Source: Lindgomyces ingoldianus
Lineage: Eukaryota; Ascomycota; Dothideomycetes; Pleosporales; Lindgomycetaceae
Direction: 5' to 3'
Length of the DNA: 64,000 nt
Assembly: GCF_010093535.1 (NCBI RefSeq)
Contig: NW_022985163.1
Span: 2,060,872-2,124,871, forward strand
Shown here: in pieces, positions 54,328 through 62,987 of the stretch
Layout of the letters: the number at the start of each line of letters is the position of its first letter
How positions within the stretch are numbered: position 1 is the first letter of the stretch
Program-made: the position numbers and the translations under genes
The notes under the pieces: model-generated
What the model was told of the DNA's origin: nothing
The model's database searches: none
Seen by the model: the letters and a program-made list of their open reading frames with translations, nothing else

Positions 54328-55381
54328 TTAAACCGTAGCAGCGTTATCCTGCGGCATATCATTCGCTACCCCATCCCCATTTCCAGCTGTCGCCCCATTC
54401 CTCGTCCTCGACTTCTCTCCTGCGTGAGCCACCGGCGTAACTGCAGGATCATCTTCATAATCTCGAATCTGCAAACCCAGTCTAGCAGGATCAATACTAC
54501 GATGCCCCCAAAGCAACAACGCACCAAACACCGGCTTGGCCAGGAAATCCAGAACGCCATAGAACACCGCCTCTGAGTCTGGTGCAATTACGTTTCCGCC
54601 TTCGCATACACCCCATGCGATGGGATACAGCACCCATAGGATGCAGGTCAGGGAGCCGCAAAGGAAGAAGACGCGCGTCACGTCTTTACCCAGGGGGTTG
54701 GTGTGGAGTCGGGCTTCCCACGCGAGTTGGTAGATTATGTAGCAGAGAGCGAGGCATCCTTCCCTTTATCAGTTTAATAATTCAGGAAAGGGAGGTTCAG
54801 ATGGCGTTAGGTCTTACCGAAAGCAAAATATCCCCATTTGTAGGTGGATCGGACTAACGCACCCACAAGCCCACAAACAATCATAATCTCATCCACCAAA
54901 ATAACCCACAGAATTGTCGGCCATGGCATCCCAGCCGTCAACAAAAGATCCATCAACAACAGGGGTGTCGTAATAAACCAATCGATATATCTCACATAAA
55001 AAATCTCACGGAATACCCCATGAACTTTAGGGTCGCTGCGCTGGTTTTCAACCACAATTGGAGTGAACCCCAAATTCGAGCCCATAGAGAAATAAGAGAT
55101 TGCGGCGACGAATACAACACCTGCAGTGATATAATGGAAGATACGGTCGCGGCGATGTTTCTGGAGGGCGAGGCCGACGAATGTGAATGCTGCTACGGCC
55201 ATTGCAGCGCAGATGGCGAAGTAGAAGTCGGAGCCGCGAGGAGTGATGGCAATGTCGGCGGTAATGCCATTTACGGTGTTACCTACAGATTGGTAGCTAT
55301 TTCTTTGAGAAAGTGTGTGTCTTGGGGCGGATTCTCACCGTTGATGCGCAAGGCATCGTTCCTTCTCTCAAAGTTTTTCAT
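54328..55381 (-). CDS. carO: Microbial-type rhodopsin (CarO-like opsin)
   Basis: Exons are 55339-55381, 54818-55282 and 54328-54758, with introns of 56 and 59 bp (GTGAGA...CTGTAG and GTAAGA...GGAAG). The product is 312 aa with seven hydrophobic helices. Helix C reads RYIDWFITTPLLLMD, placing Asp about 115 and Asp about 126 at the positions of the proton acceptor and donor of bacteriorhodopsin. Helix G reads LDFLAKP, with Asp about 240 and the retinal Schiff-base Lys about 244. All key residues of a light-driven proton pump are present. The sequence matches the CarO group (GSNLGFTPI, REIFYVRYIDWF). The C-terminal tail is polar. It needs retinal, normally made by the carotenoid oxygenase encoded next door, which is disrupted here. 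Confidence 0.93.
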
Positions 55382-56224: not shown

Positions 56225-56253
56225 CAGCGTTTCCAACAGGAAGTAGTACAATT
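56225..56253 (+). repeat. Inverted repeat, left arm (outside the hAT remnant)
   Basis: CAGCGTTTCCAACAGGAAGT and the following bases are matched, inverted, at 56955-56983 with few mismatches. The arms enclose the hAT remnant and about 100 bp of normal DNA on the two sides together. Confidence 0.75.
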
Positions 56254-56275
56254 GATACTTTTGCTCCACCTACAA

Positions 56276-56297
56276 TCACGTGAGGCAAACAAACGTA
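56276..56297 (+). repeat. 22-bp direct repeat, left copy
   Basis: TCACGTGAGGCAAACAAACG plus two bases matches 56892-56913 with three mismatches. It is too long for a hAT target duplication. Confidence 0.7.
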
Positions 56298-56888
56298 ACT
56301 ACATTTTTAACTATTACAATTTAATTAATAAGGCTTAAAAGTAAGCAGTATATAATTAAGGTAGACTTTTTTAAGGTTGCAGTCTCTAATGTGTGTAAGG
56401 GCTAGGGGAGCGTGTTTGTGCCACTATTTACGTGTTAGTGTAGCCTTAGAGCTTGCCCTGTACTATAACAACCTTTTAGACAACCTTATTATAGCAAAAG
56501 ATAACAGTCCCTTGTATAGGGAACCTCTAGATTAGTGGCTCTAGGTTAGTTAGCGCGACTATCCTGTACTCTTTAAGATAGCACTTAATTTCCTATGTAT
56601 ACCCTCCACAAGCTGCGACTGCAAGAGAGCCTTTAGCAGGGGGAAAAAGACAGTTACTTGTAACTGTAATTATTTCTTAGGCTTTATAATTAAAGCTTTA
56701 CAACTCTAGAAAAACTAGCTACATTATAAAGTTATTTTTAGTAAATTAAATAACCTTATGTGCTATATTAAAAGTAAGGGGGACCCTGCTACTCTAAAAG
56801 CTTTAACAGTTACGTTGTAACTTTTAGTAAAAAGTTAAGAAGTATAAGCAGCTTTAATTAAACTGTAACTTAATTGTATTAACCCCTG
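56298..56888 (+). mobile_element. hAT transposon remnant, 3' end (truncated)
   Basis: This is an AT-rich, RIP-type island of about 590 bp in normal DNA. Plus-strand reading from about 56500 to 56720 gives a hAT C-terminal dimerisation domain with stops (YPVLFKIALNFL, then IPSTSCDCKRAFSRG, then IIKALQL). The right end reads TAACCCCTG, a typical inverted hAT terminus (CAGGGGTTA). The subterminal sequences near 56310-56330 and 56850-56872 are partly inverted copies. The 5' part and left terminus are missing, so it is a deletion derivative. It is not the same family as the hAT at 58264. Confidence 0.75.
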
Positions 56889-56891
56889 CTG

Positions 56892-56913
56892 TCAGGTGAA
56901 GCAAACAAAAGTA
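56892..56913 (+). repeat. 22-bp direct repeat, right copy
   Basis: Partner of 56276-56297, directly after the hAT remnant terminus. Confidence 0.7.
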
Positions 56914-56954
56914 TATGATAAGTGAGACGTAGCTTGTCTAGAAAGCCTGAGTCG

Positions 56955-56983
56955 AATCGTACTACTTCCTGATGGAAACGCTG
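56955..56983 (-). repeat. Inverted repeat, right arm
   Basis: Partner of 56225-56253. Confidence 0.75.
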
Positions 56984-57806
56984 CGAGAAACCTACCTAGC
57001 AACTCGCAGCACCCCTCATTGCCAGATACCAATACCCTGGTTCCGAGGTAGATCCTCCAACACCATCTCCTCCGGCGATCGCGAAACGAGCGGCACATCT
57101 CCGATTCGTTTTGGATTCCCGCCAAATAGACCGCATTTACAGGGGAGAAATTCGCCACATGACAGCGTTAAAGTGATCTTCGTGCAGTTCAGTGATTTTC
57201 GAGAGTTGGTAGGGCTATGTTTGCATATTTCCAACGATTATCGTGACCTTCGTGGTAGGAAAGCGCAGGGGCCGTGTAGCATGAAAGTGTTTTCCCATGA
57301 AGATGCTCGCGCTGACCTCGGTGTGATATAAGACTAGTGATCTTCGTCATTTGTGAGGGGGGTAGGCGGGGTGGTGATCTGATGATTGGCAGGGCTATGC
57401 TTGTACGTATTGAACGGTTAGCGCAACATTGGGTGAATTTGAGAATGGGGAGGTGGGAGGTTAGAGTGGCTATCAAGGAGTGCGGTGTCATTCTATCTAG
57501 GTAGCAGTGGTGTGATTACTTCTTGTCGGAGGTGTGTTTTCTCACGGTGGAGGTATGAAAGGGCGAGGTGAGGGACCAGCCTCACACCATGTGAAGGTAG
57601 ATCATTTGAGAGAAGAATAAGAAAAGGCTTGGGTTAGGTACTAGATGATAGTATTACTTGTCATATGACAATCTCCTCAATGCGAACTTTGGGTATGTTC
57701 AACCTCGTAACCTCTCTAGTTTACTACCTATCGTCACTCAAAAACCGGCATTTCCGCTAATCACGTCGCTTCTCAACCCCTATAAGTTCTCATGATGACA
57801 ACCTAA
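56984..57806. other. Intergenic, 3' of the carotenoid oxygenase
   Basis: Base composition is normal; overlapping short frames have no support and no gene is seen. Confidence 0.4.
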
Positions 57807-58263
57807 TTACCCAACCCAACCAATCATCTTCCGCTTGACCTTCAACCAAGCCGTATCCTGCACTTTCACTGGCAAACTCCTCACCTTCTCCACGCTCCTC
57901 TGCTCTTGTATCTGCTTCCCCGAAAACCAATTACCATGCAATCCATACGGAACACGCTGCGGCAGTCTCACTCTCGCAAGGACATCTCTCATATTCCTTG
58001 CATCTAATATCCACAGCTCTGATACTGCGTCCGATACACACTCCCCAAAGACATCGAGTTGGGATTCATCGAATGCATAGAAGAGTAGATATCCGTCATC
58101 TTCAGATACAGGATTTTGGCGAGACACAAAGCGAGCTTCTTGCGCATACCAATTTCCCGACATCTTAAACGCTTGGATGGAATCGTTAGCATTGGAGCTG
58201 TTTAGGATGTCGGTGATGCTGCGTGTATCTATGCACCCTGTGATACTTTTCGGTGGACACAGC
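57807..58263 (-). pseudogene. carX: Carotenoid oxygenase, 3' fragment (CarX-like)
   Basis: This is the C-terminal ~150 residues of the split gene, open from the transposon border to a stop at 57807. It carries LFYAFDESQLDVFGE and the family C-terminal block LPQRVPYGLHGNWF. The His of that block is the fourth iron ligand of carotenoid oxygenases and would be about residue 635 of the uninterrupted protein. Bases 58256-58263 are one copy of the 8-bp target duplication. The fragment by itself has no promoter and lacks the other three iron ligands. The sequence shows no RIP or frameshift, so the break looks recent relative to gene decay. Confidence 0.92.
58256..58263. repeat. hAT target-site duplication, left
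   Basis: GACACAGC, identical to 61343-61350. Confidence 0.95.
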
Positions 58264-61200
58264 CAGCGTGCCCAACAGTCCGTACTACTGTACGATTAGG
58301 AGATTTTGAGGCCTGTACGGACGAGATTGCCTGTACGTACGTACGGTCGTGAGGAGGAGAGGCAGCTGTACGGACAGTAACCACACTGTTTAAAATAAGC
58401 TGTACAGGTAGTACTGTATAATTAATGTACATTGTAACTATTAATACGCTATACTATAGAAGAGGCAGAGTTAAAGGCCTAATAGCTTCTTATAAGGCTA
58501 TTTTCCCTAGTAATGTAAGCAGCTAAAGCTAGGAGCTTGCTTCTTACTATTTAGTGTTTAATCTAGTGCTTCTGCAGCTGTATAGCCTTAATTGTTGCAC
58601 CTAATAGGTTGTTACAATTGTTAGTTACAGTACAGCTAGCAGCACTAAAACACCTCTCGCACTTACAGCTTGTAGCTAGGATAGTAAGGAAATTAAGGGT
58701 AATTTTATAAAAAATAGGATAGCTTAATTTGCCTCTAGTAAGCTACTACTATAGAGGATCTCTATGTAGTAATAAGTAATTCTTGTAGAGATTAGAGCGT
58801 ATAGTGTTGTAGTAAAATTACAGCTTATTTAATAGCCTCTTACACTTATATAAGCGCTTGTTTATTATAAGAGAGAGGTTAATAGCAAAGCAGTTTTTAT
58901 AATTAATGTTATAATAGTTGCTACTAAGTAGTTTATAACGCCTTAAAGATAAGGCCTTAGCTTTATCTTTATCTCTATTTTTATCTTTATCCTTAGCATC
59001 TATATACTATGTAAAGATTAACTTTATTAACTAAGTTACTTTATTAATCTAGGCCTTATAATAGCGCTAGTAGGTTTAAAACTACAGTAATTGCAGCTAA
59101 GAATAAAGTATAGTTGCTACTGCGTAATATAAGGCTAGAGGCTTAAAGATTAGCTTACCCTAGTAGGTTATAAGCTTCTAATAGCTAAACTAGATAGCAC
59201 TTTTAAAGTAAAAAAAGCTAGGCTTGTTAGTAAAGGCGTTGCCTATCTAATTAAAGTAGATTTAAAGGCACTATAGCTTTATAATTATTTGCTAAAGTAA
59301 GCTAGATAAGCTGTTGCCTTTAAGTCTTTTTATTATTTAATAAAACTTTTTTAAAAAGCCTATAAAGCGCTTAATCTTATCCTAATTATCCTTAGTTATA
59401 AGATCTAATAAGGTGTTAAATCTAGCACAGTAAGCCTTATTCTTAGCATTAAAAGAGCCTTTTTATTGCCTTTAGAAGCAGCTAATTACCTCTTTAAGCT
59501 TAAAGCAGCGTAGGAGCATAAGATATACTAAGTGCTAGTGTACTCTGCTGTTATGTACAAGATTAAGTGTACTAAACTCCTAAATAAAGTCCTCTTTAGC
59601 TAAGTCTCTCTATATAGTGTTAAAAAGCCTTATGCGCTTATGTAAGGCTAGGACGCTGTTTACAAGGTTATAGAAACACCTAACAACACTGCGCTTTTTA
59701 TATAGCTTAAATTAATTATAAGGAGCAGCTCTAGCAAGCTCCTACTTAAATTTAGTAACACTTTTGCTGTATATAATAGCTTTTACAACTACCTAGATAG
59801 TGTGGCCAGCGCAGCAGATTTAGTGCTGCCTGTTAAGCTTATATAGCAGATTTAGGTAATTGTTAAGGCTCTAGATAAGCTTATTATTATTATTTAATAT
59901 ATTATCTCTAACAAAGCAACTAAATTTTAATATAATATTATATTTAATAATAGTAGCAGCTACTTTAAAAGCTTACATACTTTTAGTATAGTTGCTGTAA
60001 AGGTTTTTAAATTTAATAAGAAGATCTTATTATTTATGCAAAGCATCTAGTAGAGTTAGTGTTGTAGAAAAGTAGTAATAGTAGCCTGTGTACACTTACT
60101 AACAAAATAAGCTACTACTGTAAGAAATAAAAGGTAATTTCTACTACTTTACACATCTATGCTTAACGCAATTTTTAATAATGCTAAATTTAGTACTATT
60201 AAAATCTCCTACTTCTGCTGCATAAATGCATCCTAAATATTAGTAAAAAGTGTAGTATATAATTATAAAAAAGTAGTAAGAAGATCTATGTAATTCTAGC
60301 TAATAAGGCCTTAGGTTTTTATAAAAATAGTGTTTCTAAATAATTAATTCTGCACTATAACCTAATCTACTAGGGCACTGCGCAGAGGGCCTTCCTGCTA
60401 AGGTGTATAAGATAGCCTATGTAATAAGCCTGCTACTCTTACTCTAGCTACCTTCTATAGGTGCTAAGAAGCCTAAGGGCTATTAAGTAAAAGCTTTTTA
60501 TTAATGTTAACTTTATACTCTCTTTATAAATGCTTTACTATATAGTTATAACTATTAACTACTTTTGCAGCGCTTTTATAATGTTGCTTATAGCACTAAT
60601 AGCAGAGCTAAAGGTGTATAACCTTGCTCTGCTTCTTACACAGCATTAAATCTGCTTTATAGAGCTACACCTTTAAAACCTTATAGTTGCCTCTTATTAT
60701 TCTTTTATTTTTTACCTAGTAACTTAATTACGCAGCTAGCAGAGCCTCTTTTAAATCTAATAGCTATATATTACCCTAGTTAATCTTAAACTTAGTGCTA
60801 GCATTATAATTACACTTCTTTAGGTACTCCTTTAATTACTTATTACTAGCAAGTAGTGTAGCCTTATAGAATAGGCTAGTAAAGGTGTTATAAATTGCCT
60901 TTAATTTTTTAAGCTTTTAAGACTTTATAGGGTGTATAATAGTAACACTAGATTAACTTAATAAGGCCTGTAAGGCTGTAAGGCGCGTAGATAAGCAATT
61001 CTGTAATAAAAAGTAGTTAGTAATAAGCATTATTTTAATTTTAATAAGCTATACTATCTAAATAGGCAGGTAAAGTCTTCTTTAAGCAGCTAAATTAGCG
61101 TTGCACATAAGATTTTCTACTAATTAGCCCCCTAGGGCAGCTTCTCTAGTAAGGGCTCTTTAAAACACTAAATTAAGCTTTATAAGCTATCCTAAAATGC

Positions 61201-61342
61201 TAACTGTACACTGTACTACAGACAGTACTTAGGGCAACAGCTATTATACGCACTGACAGAAGATTGCTGTACGTTCGTACGGTCTAAATCAACCGTACAC
61301 CGTACTCAGTACTGTCAGTAGTACGGCCTATTGGGCACGCTG
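58264..61342 (-). mobile_element. hAT transposon (3079 bp) inserted in the carotenoid oxygenase gene
   Basis: The terminal inverted repeats start CAGCGTGCCCAACAGTCCG (left) and CAGCGTGCCCAATAGGCCG (right, read inverted), matching at 25 of the first 27 positions. The 8-bp duplication GACACAGC flanks both ends, as in hAT elements. Subterminal CCGTAC/GTACGG motifs are clustered at both ends (58275-58385 and 61205-61325), as in hAT transposase-binding regions. Minus-strand reading near 58560-58700 gives a dimerisation domain with ILATSCKCERCFSAA. The interior is AT-rich with stops in every frame, so the element is RIP-inactivated and cannot excise by its own enzyme. Confidence 0.95.
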
Positions 61343-61350
61343 GACACAGC
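61343..61350. repeat. hAT target-site duplication, right
   Basis: GACACAGC, identical to 58256-58263. It lies within the coding frame. Confidence 0.95.
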
Positions 61351-62987
61351 TCTCCTCTCCGTAGTAACGTCTGCACATCCATCTTCACTAAAACATCGAT
61401 CTTGGTTGCTTTCCCCAATGCCGCGCCGAAGGATTCACTGCTGGTACTGCAACCGTAGATGTACCGTGCCGATGACATTTCGTACGCTGGATTCAGCGTT
61501 GGGAATTCGAACGGGATGTGCGAGAGCGCGTATTGGTGTGATACGGTGGGAGTTGAGGCAGTAAGCGAAAAGCGATGGTAATAAAGTCGACATTGCTCTT
61601 CATCATCATCTACAATTGCTGGGTAGGCAGGAGATAGAAGAGGCGTTGTCTCTTGAGCTGGATCTTTCTCCAAGTCTGCGGCTTCGTCGTCGTATTTTGC
61701 GAAGAAAGACATTAGTCGGGATTTTTCGAGCGCATCTTGCTTTGACTGAGGCGGTAGGGGGAGGTTTCCTGCGCTAAATACTAACGACGAAGAGGTCAGG
61801 CGACATGTGAGAAGGTTGACGGCAGTGGTAACTCCACCGGCGTCATATTCATCCCACGTGTTTGCGGTATGAAAGATGCAACATCCACTCGTTTCGAACC
61901 AGCGAACCCGAGAGGGATCATGTCGAGGGAAGACACCAAAGCGAGAAGGTTTATCGGGCTTATATGATATAACCGGCTCGTTTTTGAAGAGGTTGAAGGG
62001 TGTCAAGGAGAGCGGGAGATCGAGAATGACGGTATGAGAGAGAGAAACTCCGAAGTCGTGCATCATCTTTCCACCAGAACATCCAGGCACGGGAGTATTG
62101 AGTTGCTTCGAGCGTTGCGATAGTGACCTCGTATAGCAGGGCGGTATAACAGAGTAGTGGACGTATGGAGGGAGAAAAGTGCAATGGAATAGTATCATCT
62201 CTCCAGTCCACGGATCGACTTTAGGATGTCCAGTCGTCCACTCTTTCATGAAACTAAACAGTCCAGAGCCACCAAAGACTTCTTCCTTCGGCTGAGATCT
62301 TTCTCGGCACTCGGGCTCTCCTTCTGTTCGATTCCCGTGGTACCAGCCCACCGTTTCTAGCCCAGGGAGTTGAATGCGGATCGGAGGCCCGCTCTCACAT
62401 GTTGCTAGAGCACGACGATCGTGAAATAGGACTCCGGTGTTTGCGACGCTGATTCTGTTGATGACTTGCTGCGAGCGGGGTAGATGAGAAAGTAGAACAA
62501 GAAATACACTCCGGAAGATGCAGAAAATGGTGACGATTAAACTCGATAGCGGATTGACTAAGGTTGCAATACTTGGAAGGATGGGCGTTCTTAATGAAGG
62601 ACTCTCTAAACTCGAAAGACAGATATCGGTCAAGATGTACTGGTTTACGAAATGAGGGATTGGTTTCTCGGGATCTGAATGAGAAGGTTTGAAGAATACA
62701 CCTGCAAGCATGCCGTCGCCATCAAACCAGTGGGCATCGCGCCCAAGATCTGAGTTCGAGACTGGGTTACCTCCATTGCGAACATACTCTCCCCCAAGAA
62801 GTTCTAGCGGGACTGTTCCAGTGTATGAACATGGAACTGGGGAGTGAGTTATCGTTACCGGAGCAAAGTTTCCGGTGAGATAGCTGTATAGAGTCAGTGG
62901 ACAAGCTTAAGCACGTGACGATGGCTGTCGAGATTGAACATACGGGTGCGCTGAGCCTCGCTTCTTCGCTCGTCCATTTCTATTCAT
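61343..62987 (-). pseudogene. carX: Carotenoid oxygenase, 5' fragment (CarX-like)
   Basis: Exon 1 is 62944-62987 (MNRNGRAKKRGSAHP) and exon 2 starts at 62883, after a 60-bp intron (GTATGT...ATACAG, CTGAC branch). The junction recreates HPYLTGNFAPV, a family signature. Next come GEYVRNGGNP and DAHWFDGDGML. The first three iron-binding histidines are in TTGHPKVDP (about 234), MMHDFGVS (about 290) and IFHTANTWDE (about 353). Near residue 529 the frame enters the transposon and stops 18 codons later (61284). The family cleaves carotenoids; CarX-type enzymes yield retinal. A product made from this part alone would lack the fourth His and the last ~150 residues, so it should be inactive. Confidence 0.92.

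Follow-up and report, generated by a model that had tools for sequence, protein, structure and literature searches.

A hAT transposon splits a carX-type carotenoid oxygenase gene in the opsin-containing car cluster of Lindgomyces ingoldianus

A carotenoid oxygenase gene of the carX type (57807-62987, minus strand) was found to be split by a 3,079-bp hAT element (58264-61342) in the freshwater Pleosporales ascomycete Lindgomyces ingoldianus. The window analysed is a stretch of 64,000 nt on a contig of 2,763,343 bp, within a 68.4-Mb assembly of 99 contigs, and this one genome served as the sample of the species. The features of the gene and of the element, which bears repeat-induced point mutation (RIP), are the following:

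62944..62987, minus strand: carX exon 1, start codon 62985-62987, read from the sequence and matching the public model
62884..62943, minus strand: carX intron of 60 nt (GTATGT...ACAG), read from the sequence, spliced as in the public model
61351..62883, minus strand: carX exon 2, upstream half (RPE65 1-392, three of the four iron-ligand His; profile search and alignment)
61343..61350: target-site duplication, right copy
61316..61342: terminal inverted repeat, right
58264..61342: hAT DNA transposon, 3,079 bp, mutated by RIP, with 86 stops in its minus-strand transposase frame
58572..58727, minus strand: trace of the hAT C-terminal dimerisation domain (PF05699), 25.4 bits at a cut-off of 21.4 in the frame with each stop taken as X
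58264..58290: terminal inverted repeat, left
58256..58263: target-site duplication, left copy
57807..58263, minus strand: carX downstream half (RPE65 390-469, fourth ligand His in PYGLHGNWF, stop codon 57807-57809)

On the minus strand the carX frame in exon 2 breaks off at 61351 and resumes at 58263, in the last quarter of the gene. When 58264-61350 is omitted (3,087 = 3 x 1,029 nt), the codons are continuous and stop-free, and the halves of 525 and 151 aa together with the split codon make 677 aa; 106 of the 119 listed relatives have 640-740 aa. The upstream half is identical to the public L. ingoldianus protein BDR25DRAFT_371206, a model of 547 aa whose C-terminal residues are read from the transposon and which leaves the downstream half outside. 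The disruption is in this way concealed in the public annotation under the name 'uncharacterized protein'. A first-pass annotation of the DNA had proposed the in-frame split and a gene end at 62987; both hold, the latter being the first base of the start codon, in agreement with the public model, and the 60-nt intron is a detail absent from it.

The element is bordered by a perfect 8-bp target-site duplication, GACACAGC, at 58256-58263 and 61343-61350. The inverted ends, CAGCGTGCCCAA...TTGGGCACGCTG, form 28-nt arms that are 93% complementary, and because each arm includes one flanking base, the terminal repeat itself is 27 nt. Searching the assembly with the whole element returned at least eight other full-length copies at 90-93% identity, as well as fragments and a second family at about 71-77% identity, with all copy counts being lower bounds. 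Each of the nine full copies has an 8-bp duplication, all different and eight of them perfect, while copy L051 has one mismatch in the duplication and A in place of G as the last base of the element. Chance was excluded as the source of the element ends because the eight other full copies end at the same point, each with its own 8-bp duplication. The duplication and inverted ends described in the first-pass annotation were recovered, and its hAT label agrees with the 27-nt repeats, the 8-bp duplications in nine copies, the dimerisation-domain trace (Dimer_Tnp_hAT) and a tblastn match of an open hAT frame from elsewhere in the genome to the element (36.6% over 257 aa, E 3e-36). The transposase frame of the element is not open.

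No open transposase was present in any of the nine full copies, where the transposase strand runs for at most 62-70 codons without a stop. The carX insertion therefore cannot now excise itself, unless a foreign transposase acts. A close active source was not found among the 11 frames of at least 150 aa that were obtained from the 15 of 147 hAT-domain matches looked at. Five of these frames match the element at 29-41% identity, and the open hAT frames were rejected as its active source, being related only distantly. Two hAT-domain frames of about 650 aa, L040 (C2:9964-10197) and L041 (C48:477779-478012), are open despite a GC content of about 20%, which is unusual in a genome whose AT-rich repeats are often stop-ridden. 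Element positions 18-118, used as query, are shared by many copies of another family (L019, L021-L030 and others), which have only that end in common with it at 82-83% identity and with tied scores, suggesting a recent expansion of a related element.

The profile search of both halves proposed in the first-pass annotation was performed with Pfam RPE65 (PF03055, cut-off 27 bits). The upstream half matched profile positions 1-392 (263.7 bits) and the downstream half positions 390-469 (86.3 bits), so that the oxygenase motifs noticed earlier on both sides of the element are complementary, and the full profile is covered by both halves jointly and by neither open frame singly. Aligned to the 114 of the 119 listed relatives that are 620-760 aa long, the halves join up with no gap between them, and their identity to protein P0003 of Clohesyomyces aquaticus is 73.7% and 70.2%, respectively. 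Six His columns are at least 97% conserved over 115 rows, and the four iron ligands are among them. Three ligands (TTGHPKVD, KMMHDFG and CIFHTAN) are placed upstream of the insertion and the fourth (PYGLHGNWF) downstream, which is the three-plus-one division that had been predicted. They align with their counterparts in the solved 9,10-dioxygenase 9luz and in 3npe, compared through P0003 and, for 9luz, also with the carX halves directly. The locus thus has all four His, and no single polypeptide has them; the upstream open frame has lost a ligand to the insertion. On these profile and alignment matches the gene is a member of the carotenoid cleavage oxygenase family, and its present predicted product is not. 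The upstream product (about 547 aa, with a transposon-encoded end) would be unable to bind iron and hence would be inactive, as judged from the family, because the fourth ligand is lost.

A working enzyme could still be made if the element were spliced out as a long intron, as is known for transposons in transcripts of plants. One branch-point-like motif with a YAG lies 36 nt from the exit end. However, no donor of the pattern GTRAGT or GTANGT is present in the first 300 nt of the entry side, which led us to reject splicing; the public gene model also stops inside the element, and 3 kb is far beyond the usual intron size in ascomycetes. We consider this explanation very unlikely.

Among the nine element copies, 588 of the 3,078 ungapped columns vary, and 577 of the 588 are C/T or G/A. 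Conversion depended on context (CpA 0.43, CpG 0.29, CpT 0.20 and CpC 0.16), while in the window copy alone CpA (50/239) and CpG (27/126) were converted about equally. The TpA/ApT ratio is 2.0 in the window copy versus 0.57-0.68 in the carX halves, which indicates that RIP stopped at the element ends at this locus; the surroundings of L051 and L052, two of the eight other copies, are themselves RIP-like. An excess of C-to-T and G-to-A changes, a preference for CpA and unaffected adjoining carX halves were all found, as for RIP.

The nine copies were mutated from C to T independently. In the four-gamete test, 61.9% of 71,253 informative-site pairs failed; ten load-weighted shuffles of 20,000 sampled pairs gave an expectation of 61.7-63.4%, with 61.8% observed on such a sample. 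The sharing of converted sites, compared with independence, gave z between -1.7 and 0.9 over 36 copy pairs. Jumping of already-mutated copies was rejected as the source of the observed differences since this sharing does not exceed chance, and the variable conversions therefore date from after the separation of the copies and most simply happened in place. The stops common to the copies suggest that the lineage was mutated before it spread. The window copy has 86 in-frame stops; 77 of them are common to all nine copies, with 19 stop positions varying, and within codons 130-930, 65 stops are common to nine copies and 6 to eight. Whether the element that landed had already been disabled by mutation, was mobilised by a foreign transposase and was then mutated further in place is for us evenly balanced. 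A beta-binomial fitted to the k = 0-8 spectrum puts the number of sites converted in all copies at about 453; adding these gives a starting G+C of 0.52, so saturation of hot sites may suffice for the shared stops; the lack of a matching active source among the 11 frames also speaks against an earlier foreign mobilisation.

The window copy has the lowest RIP load of the nine, with 163 of the 577 sites converted and 5 of these private. This pattern of its own, the perfect 8-bp duplication and the presence of both carX flanks on one 2.76-Mb contig make it extremely improbable that a repeat copy was wrongly joined into carX during assembly, even though the element exists in at least nine full-length copies.

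The insertion was dated with two relative clocks, the RIP load and the private non-RIP changes. Of the 11 non-RIP columns, 9 are private: L056, L057 and L058, the copies with the heaviest mutation, have three each. No private non-RIP change was present in the window copy or in L051-L055. The lowest RIP load makes the carX insertion the youngest of the nine, and the count of private changes places it among the young copies, so that the two clocks together support its rank as the youngest full copy or one of the youngest. When neutral rates of 1e-9 to 1e-8 per site per year are assumed, with one third of the changes being transversions, zero changes in 3,079 bp correspond to an upper bound of about 0.3 to 3 million years, to be read as an order of magnitude. 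RIP takes place during the sexual cycle and requires a RID-type methyltransferase. Since the element underwent RIP after insertion, the disrupted carX allele would have passed through at least one meiosis. The first-pass annotation had called the knock-out recent; this stands by the private substitutions and is refined in that the element has already undergone RIP in place. The independent RIP of the nine copies, and with it the dating of the insertion, is new.

The neighbours of carX in the window are:

54328..55334, minus strand: CarO-type opsin, uninterrupted, open in two pieces, with the retinal-binding Lys and proton-pump residues
63553..64000, plus strand: start of carRA (lycopene cyclase/phytoene synthase), divergent from carX and running past the window end, first-exon start inferred

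The gene order is opsin - carX - (divergent) carRA - carB. Both carRA and carB are on the strand opposite carX and largely beyond the window end, where they were seen as open pieces with domains: the CarR domain TIGR03462 and SQS_PSY for carRA, and TIGR02734 positions 46-221 and 220-494 in two open pieces for carB, each below the whole-protein cut-off. The opsin keeps DWFITTPLLLMD and DFLAKP. The accessible part of a Fusarium study (PMC5715946) describes a cluster of the same members with carX divergent from carRA, in which CarX makes retinal, presumably for CarO, and by that of a second paper (PMC5796164), 8 of 11 species have their carO counterparts in a cluster with car genes. As read by hand from the listed matches, 21 named relatives have the CarX-type gene and the opsin on contigs of equal size, and four (Dothidotthia symphoricarpi, Stemphylium lycopersici, Phyllosticta citriasiana and Cryomyces antarcticus) do not. 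In three species the locus tags of the two genes are consecutive or two apart, and in Venturia effusa they differ by 25.

A search of the assembly with PF03055 gave five matches, representing three genes: the broken carX, one of the torulene type and one of the CAO-1/lignostilbene type. The third is close to lignostilbene dioxygenase and CAO-1. A second CarX-type gene was not found in the assembly, and a search with P0003 of Clohesyomyces returned the broken gene alone. The split gene is thus in a car cluster with carRA, carB and an opsin, divergent from carRA, and is neither the torulene- nor the stilbene-cleaving gene, which the other two genes match by the names of their relatives and by solved structures. 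The cluster position and the assignment of both paralogues to other subfamilies support a CarX-type identity, and with it the earlier description of the predicted enzyme as retinal-forming.

Some further observations concern this neighbourhood. A second AT-rich, RIP-like remnant is located between opsin and carX at 56250-57000 (35-37% GC, TpA/ApT 2.1-2.6), with a hAT-domain trace at 56518-56670 containing 3 TAG stops. Positions 1-38000 of the window are mostly of 23-35% GC with TpA/ApT mostly 1.5-2.3, resembling RIPped repeats; this block ends about 16 kb before the opsin, and the car cluster is not far from its border. One listed opsin match, P0252, is labelled as a bacteriorhodopsin of Escherichia coli and is 72% identical to the L. 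ingoldianus opsin, which probably reflects contamination or mislabelling.

Taking the above together, we are confident that a hAT element inserted into the last quarter of carX, by its place in the cluster the predicted beta-carotene-cleaving, retinal-forming oxygenase of the opsin-carX-carRA-carB group of L. ingoldianus. Several observations weigh against this reading, the first of which concern the identity of the gene. The CarX identity is one of synteny and paralogue assignment; no Fusarium-named protein is among the 120 listed protein matches, and relative P0003 reaches no NCBIfam equivalog cut-off. The torulene-type paralogue of L. ingoldianus, P0122, is itself named 'beta carotene dioxygenase'; many of its relatives carry the JGI name 'torulene dioxygenase' and others beta,beta-carotene 9',10'- or 15,15'- names, and its solved relatives include a 15,15'-monooxygenase. 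This paralogue might therefore make some retinal.

The remaining such observations concern the condition of carX. The gene departs at four columns that are at least 98% conserved, which ranks it fifth equal of 115 proteins, with four departing more often and three others equally often. By the same count the opsin departs once (rank 18 of 119; 118 of 119 relatives used) and the torulene-type paralogue twice (rank 19 of 116; 115 of 119 relatives used). The four departures could indicate a slight relaxation of selection, and carX may already have been non-functional or under relaxed selection at landing, so that the insertion changed nothing. We regard this as improbable: the 676 codons of the halves contain neither a stop nor a frameshift, the four ligand His are all kept along with 7 of 8 conserved Glu columns, and the close relatives P0003 and P0004 depart twice each. 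P0008 departs once, and P0006 and P0007 show no departure. Only two of the four departures, P to S and E to G, are wholly private; Y to H is shared with P0003, the closest relative, and E to K with one further relative. The earlier statement that neither half has decayed is consistent with these counts, which reveal no clear decay and a hint of relaxation.

For a carX gene broken by the insertion, the following course is proposed. The hAT element would have landed in carX, and RIP would have hit it in place during at least one sexual cycle, with the carX halves left untouched. The element's own transposase would no longer be able to undo the break. The cleavage of beta-carotene to retinal by CarX would be lost, and the opsins would be without a home-made chromophore unless another source exists; the torulene-type paralogue or some other source would be the alternatives to a loss of retinal. 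A second opsin (L081, C3:1544000-1550000) has the pump-like motif DWSLTTPLLLLD and the Lys motif DVLAKP in an adjacent frame. Its Pfam match contains one stop, which probably marks an intron, since the end with the Lys reads open in a different frame.

It is possible, if doubtful, that the rhodopsin still works with retinal supplied by another enzyme or from outside. In favour of this, the opsin of the cluster keeps the retinal Lys and the pump residues with a single conserved-column departure, a second opsin is present, and relatives of the torulene-type paralogue are named as beta-carotene cleaving. There are also precedents: as far as the accessible text of PMC5133782 goes, Neurospora crassa has an opsin and no identified carX orthologue, its only candidate cleaving resveratrol, and the accessible text of PMC7734400 describes a bacterium that contains retinal in spite of having no known retinal genes. 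However, the other two PF03055 genes of the assembly are of the torulene and CAO-1/lignostilbene types, with no further retinal-former apparent, and the opsin may be intact merely because the break is young. The profile PF15461 (Blh) had no match in L. ingoldianus, nor in any control genome.

In L. ingoldianus, accordingly, either rhodopsin function is being lost or retinal comes from another source, for which the torulene-type paralogue is a possible candidate. We tentatively propose, as a less probable extension, that this fungus is a natural and very young carX knock-out with both opsins kept, in which retinal comes by an unknown non-CarX route or the rhodopsins are at the first stage of losing their function; if true, the same non-CarX route would explain Neurospora. 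Disruption of genes by transposons is commonplace, and the interest here is in the gene that was hit and in the dating. The apparent last step of chromophore synthesis is removed inside a conserved light-pump cluster that retains a whole opsin, providing a natural test of whether a fungal rhodopsin works without CarX, a question that N. crassa, with no identified carX orthologue (PMC5133782), also raises. Among the papers listed in literature searches, as judged by titles and the beginnings of abstracts, neither a report of this carX insertion nor a genome paper of L. ingoldianus was found.

Compared with known systems, the locus is most like the CarX/car cluster of Fusarium fujikuroi, in which, by the accessible portions of PMC5715946 and PMC5133782, the oxygenase adjoins a divergent carRA and carB and a pump opsin are clustered; the iron-ligand His of the family are likewise common to both. 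In contrast to F. fujikuroi CarX, the gene here is split by a transposon, belongs to a Pleosporales species, is known from its sequence alone and is likened to CarX by its cluster. Targeted carX mutants of F. fujikuroi exist according to the accessible part of PMC5715946, and they resemble the present case in that carX is inactive and the remaining cluster is present, whereas the break in L. ingoldianus is natural and arose by transposition, the element then being mutated by RIP in place. Neurospora crassa, with its opsin NOP-1, is similar as an opsin-bearing fungus without a recognised working CarX (PMC5133782, in its accessible part), but no orthologue is identified there, while in L. ingoldianus both halves remain and the loss is young. 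The element itself shares 8-bp duplications, short inverted ends, a C-terminal dimerisation domain and RIP-type degradation with other fungal hAT transposons subject to RIP, and differs from them in that none of its nine full copies has an open transposase.

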